From contig NZ_JAAATX020000001.1 of assembly GCF_009908265.2 (NCBI RefSeq), forward strand, positions 124,001 to 188,000: 64,000 bases of DNA, in the 5' to 3' direction. Under the pieces are notes generated by a model. The model did no database searches and was not told the origin of the DNA. It was given only the letters and a program-made list of their open reading frames with translations. Source of the DNA: Paragemmobacter amnigenus (GTDB lineage Bacteria > Pseudomonadota > Alphaproteobacteria > Rhodobacterales > Rhodobacteraceae). Within the stretch, counting starts at the first letter, position 1, and each line of letters begins with the position of its first letter. Both the position numbers and the translations under genes were made by a program. Shown here in pieces: positions 6,109-44,124 of this stretch.

Positions 6109-6233
6109 GGCGGCCCTCTCTTCTGTCGGTGCAGACCATAGGCCCAAACCGCGCCACCTCCAATGGGGCTGCGCGCCCGCGTCGCAGGTGGTGACGAAGG
6201 GTTGAACGCGCATCCTGTGAGCCTGACGCGGAA

Positions 6234-6383
6234 GGGCGCTCGAAAGGCGCCAGTGGCGCGTTTCGAGTGACCGCCGGTAGGGACGCGCGCGTCACGCCGG
6301 GGCGGGCGCCTCTGGCGCACGTCCCGGTGCGGCGGGACGTGCGCGGCCCGTGGCTTTGGGCCACGGGCAAGACCCGACTGTTG
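6234..6383. repeat. R4 structured dispersed element, copy A
   Basis: Bases 6109-6419 contain no gene; most of the gap is this element. It folds into hairpin I (CTCGAAA/TTTCGAG, 6239-6245/6261-6267, with inner GCGCC/GGCGC and loop AGT), hairpin II (GCGCACGTCCC/GGGACGTGCGC) and hairpin III (GCCCGTGGC/GCCACGGGC, ending near 6368). A second copy at 23217-23356 keeps each stem while changing its bases in pairs. It lies between the Lrp-type gene and ccmF, both on the minus strand. Confidence 0.75.
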
Positions 6384-6419
6384 CGCTTTGGCGCCAAAAT
6401 CCAAACCTCAGGAAGAAAC

Positions 6420-9020: not shown

Positions 9021-9047
9021 ACCGTAGGGCGGGGTTCACCCCGCCCC
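9021..9047 (+). repeat. R1 palindromic repeat
   Basis: ACCGTAGGGCGGGGTTCACC followed by CCGCCCC. It forms a GGCGGGG/CCCCGCC stem with a TTCA loop and matches the copies at 34731 and 56768 almost base for base. Confidence 0.85.
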
Positions 9048-23165: not shown

Positions 23166-23216
23166 ACCAAGGGCAAGCCCCCAAGACTGTGCCTGCAAGT
23201 GCCTTCAAAAGTGCAA

Positions 23217-23356
23217 GGCGGTGGGAAAGGCCCCAGTGGGGCGTTTCCCATCGCCGACGGTAGGGCCGCGCACGTCCTGCCGGGGCGGGCGCCTCTGGCG
23301 CACGTCCCGGTGGGGCGGGACGTGCGCGGACCGTGGCTTTGGGCCACGGTCCGGAC
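23217..23356. repeat. R4 structured dispersed element, copy B
   Basis: Hairpin I is TGGGAAA/TTTCCCA (23222-23228/23244-23250) with inner GCCCC/GGGGC and loop AGT; hairpin II is GCGCACGTCCC/GGGACGTGCGC, identical in arms to copy A; hairpin III is GACCGTGGC/GCCACGGTC and extends by two pairs. Compared with copy A (6234-6383), six stem positions differ, each with a matching change in its partner. It lies between convergent mnmA and lpxB. Confidence 0.78.
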
Positions 23357-23404
23357 CTGACCGTTGTTATCCTTGGTGCAAGGGCCAGCGTGGTTCGCTG
23401 GGCC

Positions 23405-39540: not shown

Positions 39541-40626
39541 ATGCTCATGTTTGTGCTGCGGCGCATCGGCGTCATGATCCTGACCGCCTTCGCGCTCACC
39601 TTCGTCGTCTTCTACATGACGAACCTTCCCCCCAATCTTGAAAAACTCGCCAAGTCCGAGGCTTCGGTCCGCATGGAGGATGACGCCGTCATCAGCTGGC
39701 TGGCCGAGAATGGCTATTCCAGCCCCGTCCTGCAACGCTACGGCGAATGGCTGGGCGTCGTCCCCGGCTGGACCCGCACGGACGAGACAGGCAAGATCAC
39801 CGGCCGCTGCATCAAGGCAGGCACCGACCCCGCCACCGCCCCCGGCTACTGCGGCGTGCTGCAGGGCGACTGGGGCTTTTCCACCGTCTTCAAACAGCCC
39901 GTCTCCGAAGTGCTCGCCCGCTCGCTGGGCGCCACGGGCTGGCTGATGTTCTGGGTCATGGCCGTGATGGTGCCGACCTCGCTCCTGCTCGGCGTGCTCT
40001 CCGGCATGCGCGAGGGCAGCCGCACCGACCGCGTGCTCTCCACCTTCGCCATCACCACCACCGCGACGCCCGAATATGTCTCGGGCGTCATCCTGATCGC
40101 GCTCCTCGCCTCGGCCACCGCCGGCATCTCGCCCATCCTGAACGAGGCGGGCTGGATCTCGGGCAAGACGCTGTTTCCCGGCACCGCCACCTCGGCGATG
40201 GACGACATCACCTTCATGAACTTCTTCCTGCCCGTCATGACCATTGCGCTCTACGGCATCGGCTACATCGCCCGCATGACCCGCGCCTCCATGACCGAAG
40301 TGATGACCCAGCAATATATCCGCACCGCCCGGCTCAAGGGCGTGGGCTTCCGGCAGGTCGTCATGCGCCATGCCCTGAGAAACGCCCTGATCGCACCCTT
40401 CACGGTGATCATGCTGCAATTCCCGTGGCTCCTGAACGGCGTCGTGATCGTCGAGACCCTCTTCAACTACAAGGGCTTCGGCTGGACGCTGGTGCAGGCC
40501 GCAGGCAACAACGACATCAACACGCTGCTGGCCTGCTCGGTCGTGGCCGTCTTCGTCGTGCTCGTGACGCAGCTGATCTCGGATATCGGCTACGTCTTCC
40601 TCAACCCCCGCATCCGTCTCGCGTAA
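39541..40626 (+). CDS. ABC transporter permease, DppB/OppB type
   Basis: A 361-residue membrane subunit with one N-terminal helix (VLRRIGVMILTAFALTFVVFYM), a long periplasmic loop (residues 30-125, ending DWGFSTVFKQPVSEVLARSL) and five further helices. The EAA-type coupling loop is YIRTARLKGVGFRQVVMRHALRNAL near residue 260. It partners the downstream DppC-type permease (9 bases away). The long loop is typical of peptide-type importers with an extra periplasmic segment. Confidence 0.9.
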   Translation: MLMFVLRRIGVMILTAFALTFVVFYMTNLPPNLEKLAKSEASVRMEDDAVISWLAENGYSSPVLQRYGEWLGVVPGWTRTDETGKITGRCIKAGTDPATAPGYCGVLQGDWGFSTVFKQPVSEVLARSLGATGWLMFWVMAVMVPTSLLLGVLSGMREGSRTDRVLSTFAITTTATPEYVSGVILIALLASATAGISPILNEAGWISGKTLFPGTATSAMDDITFMNFFLPVMTIALYGIGYIARMTRASMTEVMTQQYIRTARLKGVGFRQVVMRHALRNALIAPFTVIMLQFPWLLNGVVIVETLFNYKGFGWTLVQAAGNNDINTLLACSVVAVFVVLVTQLISDIGYVFLNPRIRLA

Positions 40627-43989: not shown

Positions 43990-44112
43990 CGAAATCTGAC
44001 GCGAGACTTTCGCGCCGTTTCCTGACGCAGGAAACGGTGCCCGCGCGCTGTGCCCATGATTCCCTACGGAATTTGCGCCAAAGTCCGACGCGAATTCTGC
44101 GTCAGAATTCGC
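43990..44112. repeat. R3 four-hairpin intergenic element, copy 2
   Basis: Four hairpins in the same order as at 2711-2820: an imperfect one at 43990-44012, 44015-44037 (CCGTTTCCTG/CAGGAAACGG, loop ACG), 44068-44088 (one mismatch) and 44090-44112, whose 23 bases equal those at 2798-2820. As in copy 1, it lies between convergent genes. Confidence 0.75.
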
Positions 44113-44124
44113 CCGCGCGGACCG

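Follow-up and report, generated by a model that had tools for sequence, protein, structure and literature searches.

Large multi-palindrome repeats such as ERIC, BOX and RIME are modular intergenic elements of 100-160 bp from other taxa that contain several hairpins, and MITEs are short, non-coding, dispersed elements whose presence differs between relatives. The repeat described here, R4, was recognised from two copies (A and B) in a 64,000-nucleotide stretch of the Paragemmobacter amnigenus genome, hereafter the window. With ERIC, BOX and RIME it is alike in size and modularity. With MITEs it shares shortness, non-coding nature, dispersal and an insertion polymorphism, observed as presence or absence between relatives and probably due to insertion rather than deletion. 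Its ends (GYGCAA...TTGCRC) are inverted, with pairing at 5 or 6 of 6 positions in 49 of 95 copies, and no clear target-site duplication is visible at six aligned sites, whose flanks are too diverged for a firm judgement. REPs are described as single palindromes of 20-40 bp with a GTAG or CGTC tag (PMC3733652). Like REP, REPIN and BIME elements (PMC3733652), R4 is intergenic, palindromic and present in many copies, favours unidirectional and convergent gaps, and carries GTAG in its spacer GGTAGGG in many copies, but it is ~159 nt long with nested stems, its GTAG forms part of a closing stem and the genus has no RAYT-type Y1 transposase over the cut-off. A further relative in appearance is the Rhodobacterales 'GTGAGG-hairpin-CGAAC' mini-hairpin, which often has the R4 hairpin I core GAAAGGnnCCAGTGGnnCGTTTC and, unlike R4, lacks hairpins II and III; at several loci it lies beside ORFs that we take by eye to be transposase-like. 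Its pattern was found in only 2 of 61 genomes and is thus uncommon as a repeat at that stringency.

A sequence-only reading of the window had placed two copies at 6234-6383 and 23217-23356, with three hairpins retained through matched changes. Both are indeed present, with 87% identity over 142 ungapped bases, at the locations given, although the element delimited by a covariance model runs a few bases further out. The features of the two copies are as follows.

6228..6386, + strand: copy A of R4, covariance-model match G000:C1:130228-130386
6234..6272, + strand: copy A hairpin I (outer stem hypervariable, core GAAAGG..CCAGTGG..CGTTTC)
6275..6282, + strand: copy A closing stem, 5' half (CGGTAGGG), from alignment and model
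6285..6298, + strand: copy A arm L, whose partner is arm R, from alignment and model
6299..6325, + strand: copy A hairpin II, whose 3' arm M (about 6315-6325) can alternatively pair with R
6331..6344, + strand: copy A arm R, from alignment and model
6345..6369, + strand: copy A hairpin III, from fold, alignment and model
6373..6380, + strand: copy A closing stem, 3' half, from alignment and model
23211..23369, + strand: copy B of R4, covariance-model match G000:C1:147211-147369, between convergent genes
23217..23255, + strand: copy B hairpin I, from fold, alignment and model
23268..23281, + strand: copy B arm L, from alignment and model
23282..23308, + strand: copy B hairpin II with arm M on its 3' side, from alignment and model
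23314..23327, + strand: copy B arm R, from alignment and model
23328..23352, + strand: copy B hairpin III, from fold, alignment and model

The neighbours of copy B are, as we take them to be by eye, an mnmA-like gene on the 5' side and an lpxB-like gene on the 3' side. The fold of both copies outdoes dinucleotide shuffles, with z of -4.5 for A and -8.3 for B and 0 of 200 shuffles as good in each case. The paired changes reported for hairpin I are real, but their number is five two-sided changes and not four: in the copy alignment, C-G to G-C, C-G to T-A, T-A to G-C, C-G to G-C and an inner G-C to C-G from A to B, a sixth difference being G.A in A, where it is unpaired, against C-G in B. Hairpin III, for which one or more such changes had been noted, has one, C-G in A to A-T in B. 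Loops and spacers had been described as identical, which is true of the hairpin loops but not of some spacers (GCCGGTAGGGA vs GACGGTAGGGC), and the three hairpins, though all present, turn out to be more than separate units, with II and III lying within a closing stem and II on top of a 14-pair stem. The statement that structure and not sequence is preserved goes too far: the arms of hairpin I are hypervariable, but sequence conservation is seen in the hairpin tips, in the GGTAGGG spacer and in hairpin III, and A and B are well conserved outside hairpin I too.

The 17-copy model describes R4 as an element of ~159 nt (~160) with 60 modelled pairs in five helices, arranged 5' to 3' as GYGCAA, hairpin I, GCCGGTAGGG, arm L, hairpin II, arm R, hairpin III (CCGTGGCTTTGGGCCACGG) and CC.GACCG TTGCRC. 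In hairpin I the outer stem is hypervariable and the inner stem has five pairs, most copies having a mismatch between the two; the tip is three bases long, mostly AGT or GGT/GGG. GGTAGGG pairs with CC.GACC, so that hairpins II and III are enclosed by the closing stem. Three subtypes depart from this plan: a short one without hairpin II (L021, L022, L024), a long one with an additional hairpin in the hairpin II region (L017, L019, L028-L030) and one without hairpin I (L025-L027). In the long subtype, L017 contains within the hairpin II region a look-alike of the mini-hairpin with other arms.

In the own genome, which spans 4.14 Mb in 37 contigs, BLAST with copy A as query produced 42 matches, a few of which are halves of one element. 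The covariance model was built from 17 own copies picked out of 30 BLAST loci, leaving aside partial copies as well as L010 and L022, in which parts are rearranged or missing. A search of this kind had been proposed in the sequence-only reading, and it returned 44 matches in the own genome at E<=0.01; the initial observation holds, and the family to which the two copies belong, an intergenic repeat, is larger than first reported. A 61-genome survey under strict filters, whose counts are hence lower bounds, found matches at E<=0.01 in 14 genomes. Ten of these are among the 19 of the genus, the own included, and nine of the ten have between 7 and 45 copies; put by congener (n=18), eight have 7 to 45 matches, one (G006) has a single match and nine have none. 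The nearest relatives by nucleotide identity include the carrier G012 and the non-carriers G014, G008, G005 and G010, and the distribution within the genus is patchy. The four matched genomes outside the genus have weak matches only (best E 4e-4 to 3e-3), and a near one-per-genus sample of the family, of low sensitivity since ten candidates were scored per genome, gave a match at 1e-5 in 1 of 295 genomes, the own genome. R4 is thus found mainly in one Rhodobacteraceae genus. In the congener G011, three successive R4 matches lie at L218:1088-1730 with a spacing of 200-240 bases.

Neither window copy reaches the gathering score of any Rfam 15 family, in keeping with the earlier suggestion of an undescribed structural element. 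A scan to E 5 covered ten sources, and in the four with R4 (L001, L012, L017, L025) the sole match was a sub-threshold one to BASRCI153 in L017 (minus strand, 19.1 of 137 bits); searches of the open-access literature found no description of the repeat. The best reading is that R4 is a real, structured and dispersed repeat family, new among interspersed multi-hairpin repeats. One Rfam family, Cis52_sRNA, is matched elsewhere in the window (40203-40381, minus strand, 95 bits), ~17 kb from one copy and ~34 kb from the other, and is unrelated to R4; this stretch reads to us like coding sequence of a transport permease, and the family may rest on conserved coding sequence.

The exact pattern of the hairpin I core occurs in 64 stretches of 84,980 species genomes, and 62 of 65 sites have matching NN/NN. 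By eye, 9 of the 65 sites are R4, 12 belong to Clostridia (from the rumen), Coriobacteria or Gastranaerophilales and the remaining 44, most of them from Rhodobacterales, have other surroundings; the distribution of the core hairpin is thus wider than that of R4. Among 20 loci examined by eye, it lies, at several at least, beside ORFs that we take to be transposase-like (IS3-like in L093, L104 and L110) and, in L088, in what is presumably an rpoA-rplQ-like gap. A second multi-hairpin repeat with TGCGTCA/TGACGCA tips and variable, near-perfect arms is present in the window at 2700-2822 and 43990-44114 and also at G000:C2:122001-122160, a stretch with many matches in G014 and G008, both without R4. 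A GTAG-type REP-like palindrome, GTAGGGCGGGGTTCACCCCGCC, is found in the window at 9024, 34733 and 56770 and adjoins several R4 copies, in a genus without a Y1 transposase over the cut-off.

Covariation was measured on 107 matches from 98 sources in nine genomes, yielding 105 distinct rows aligned by fitting to the model, with the 17 training copies included and a few lowest-scoring rows lacking hairpin I. In this set 93.2% of 5972 cells pair, and 48 of the 60 pairs show a two-sided change. Double-changed cells number 822 as compared to 210.9 in shuffles, and the covariation score is 0.383 against 0.129 for shuffled and at most 0.071 for slid controls. On each of the five measures the covariation is higher than in all 500 shuffles, and it is higher than in every slid control. 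A 17-row MAFFT alignment, made without fitting to the model, gives a result that is the same in kind, with 94.9% paired, 14 pairs with double change and shuffles as high in 0 of 500 cases on four of the five measures and in 9 of 500 on the fifth.

In a palindrome of which neither strand is read, mutation should yield G.T and A.C mismatches equally often. On the + strand of R4, counted by helix in the 95 best of the 105 rows after dropping the ten lowest-scoring, the G.T:A.C ratio is 46:10 in hairpin I, 79:18 in the closing stem, 108:5 in the L-R stem, 55:3 in hairpin II and 94:8 in hairpin III, the last value being inflated by one near-constant U.G pair that was excluded from the counts by orientation. 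These latter are 71:10 for convergent neighbours, 57:10 for copies antisense to both genes, 51:5 for copies sense to both, 31:0 for divergent neighbours and 84:19 where neighbours were uncalled. The same asymmetry is seen as energy, the RNA fold of the + strand being more stable than that of the - strand in 91 of 95 copies. Comparison of orthologous sites across species used 20 candidate pairs, ranked by their likeness against other copies of the same two genomes. Six pairs are little or no closer than other copies (L036/L212 at rank 19, L044/L202 at 26, L046/L204 at 21, L061/L064 at 4, L061/L083 at 7 and L215/L219 at 8), for which independent insertion or conversion is possible. A set of 15 pairs, which leaves out L036/L212, L044/L202, L046/L204, L061/L083 and L066/L075, includes L061/L064 and L215/L219 and has some pairs sharing a member (L060, L064), contains 44 single-sided changes from a Watson-Crick pair to G.T and 9 to A.C. 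The ten stricter pairs, namely those at rank 1 minus L066/L075 plus L037/L072 (rank 2), give 25:4 (p=1e-4); the ratio becomes 29:5 when a G.T or A.C exchanged for another mismatch is counted as well. In unpaired columns there is no clear bias towards either strand (C/T 34 vs A/G 33 in the 15 pairs, 24 vs 20 in the ten). The G.T excess without a bias at unpaired sites identifies the + strand as the one that, as RNA or ssDNA, folds and is constrained, and a cruciform or plain double-stranded palindrome would not give such a strand asymmetry. The constraint is leaky: in the 15 pairs, pairing is broken by 50 single-sided and 15 two-sided changes and kept by 44 and 36, respectively.

Presence of R4 differs between species at corresponding sites. 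At the copy A site the gap measures 209 bases in the own genome vs 64 in G012, and eight other congeners have shorter gaps of 111 to 168 bases; of these nine congeners, the six that were aligned have unlike spacers. At the copy B site, for which eleven congeners were fetched and six aligned, G012 has R4, and three other AT-rich hairpins occupy the site in G014, G008, G002, G006 and G005. Those hairpins (L191, L192, L193, L195 and L197, respectively; e.g. GCCTGAGATTTTTCACTGAAAAATCTCAGGC) are unrelated to R4 and themselves show paired changes between species. Of seven further elements in three 20 kb stretches, six are absent from one or more relatives: C2:124166 in G012, C2:138606 in G014, C3:2663 in G014 and G008, the partial copy C3:14098 in G008, C3:16707 in G012 and C10:22064 in G014 and G008, the gaps at the seventh site, C10:16331, being too unlike between relatives for such a comparison. 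Against simple absence, C3:14098 has near-equal length in G012 and G014, C10:22064 is filled in G012, and at C2:138606 G012 has a different sequence of similar length; the stretch absent from a relative is often longer than the R4 element. With several sites empty or differently filled in relatives, R4 evidently disperses. Two enzyme families and plasmid records were searched for a vehicle. The Y1 transposase PF01797 (RAYT) is over the cut-off in 0 of 19 genus genomes, with one sub-threshold match in the non-carrier G008 and search controls positive in 5 of 14 genomes, on which ground a RAYT-driven REPIN is rejected. Reverse transcriptase PF00078 occurs in 3 of 19 genomes (G010, G014, G017), all without R4, and in no R4-bearing genome, so that a retro-element (retron or group II intron derivative) is rejected. 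Plasmid-borne spread finds no support, with 0 matches in 72,556 plasmid records queried with copy A only. IS200/IS605-type ssDNA transposition shows a bias with replication direction; of 30 own-genome copies entered, 27 were usable (one lay outside the fetched stretches and two at near-zero skew), and by our own assignment of replication direction they divide 16:11, without bias.

The explanation we favour, at about an even chance of being right, takes R4 to be a dispersed element of ~159 nt, non-coding and non-autonomous, whose + strand would fold as a single strand into a branched structure of hairpin I followed by the closing stem, which holds the hairpin II-topped L-R stem and hairpin III. 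The folded strand, whether ssDNA or RNA, would most likely be recognised by a host or element protein acting in trans during spread, and copies would afterwards stay on in intergenic positions, rarely in divergent gaps, while selection continues to act on the fold. A purely selfish element would not be expected to show such selection at orthologous sites, except where its copies are renewed by gene conversion. The strand-specific fold, the G.U-type pairs and the constraint at orthologous sites would also suit a structured RNA family with a cellular job, in which the + strand yields a stable or regulatory RNA and the element has multiplied within the genome; we regard this as less likely. Arm R, being complementary both to L and to the 3' arm of hairpin II (M), is common to two folds as in a switch: of the L-R cells 865 of 941 are paired, of the M-R cells 847 of 882, and some sites retain the pair in just one of the two. 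However, the M-R fold of copy B has a predicted energy of -115.4 vs -122.0 kcal/mol for L-R, 6.6 less stable, which favours L-R on paper, and the two-way pairing may reflect a switch or be left over from an arm duplication whose copies have stayed alike through recombination. Also against an RNA with a cellular job are the 0 to 45 copies between congeners, the want of any sequence common to 19 aligned copies over the 30 bases that precede them and the placement of copies relative to genes. None of the 95 best-scoring copies lies within a gene called by the in-house GC-frame caller, five overlapping a gene end by 30-84 bases, and the 69 flanked by called genes on both sides comprise 23 in convergent gaps, 18 sense to both neighbours, 20 antisense to both and 8 in divergent gaps, hence no bias of sense over antisense.

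The excess of convergent over divergent gaps (23:8, p=0.01), together with the position of copy B in a convergent gap filled by other hairpins in five relatives without R4, might be taken to indicate an mRNA 3'-end element, such as a stabiliser, terminator or RNase III site in the manner of transcribed REPs. This seems improbable, given that sense and antisense placements are equal and that copies with both neighbours in antisense show a strong G.T excess too. Selection could be dispensed with altogether if palindrome arms were jointly rewritten by replication template switching, a process proposed for RNA hairpins by Monttinen and Loytynoja 2022 (PMC8794818), leaving covariation without function. 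The arms of hairpin I do differ as whole blocks that are still complementary at the same site, and among pair-keeping double changes in the 15 orthologous pairs 23 are of transversion type, hard to reach via G.U steps, vs 13 of transition type, an indecisive excess as random double changes would favour transversions too. Template switching does not, however, lead one to expect that G.T outnumbers A.C on a single strand, nor the single-sided excess between orthologues without a clear bias at unpaired sites, and as the whole explanation it is very doubtful; it may instead supply the paired changes, of which selection on the + strand keeps those that fold. A bolder and rather unlikely reading would make R4 copies genus-level mobile switch-like elements, in which R pairs with a duplicated L or M and which are selected in place on one strand whatever the orientation of neighbouring genes, each being a self-contained RNA (or ssDNA) device with arms renewed by template switching and moved by some mobiliser.

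A strand-specific constraint that holds regardless of the direction of neighbouring genes is, in our judgement, unusual for a bacterial repeat and raises the question as to what reads the folded strand. The nine well-stocked carriers, with up to 45 copies per genome and a number of these at orthologous sites, provide a natural experiment on the origin of matched stem changes, in which a stepwise route via G.U pairs can be set against a one-step route by template switching.
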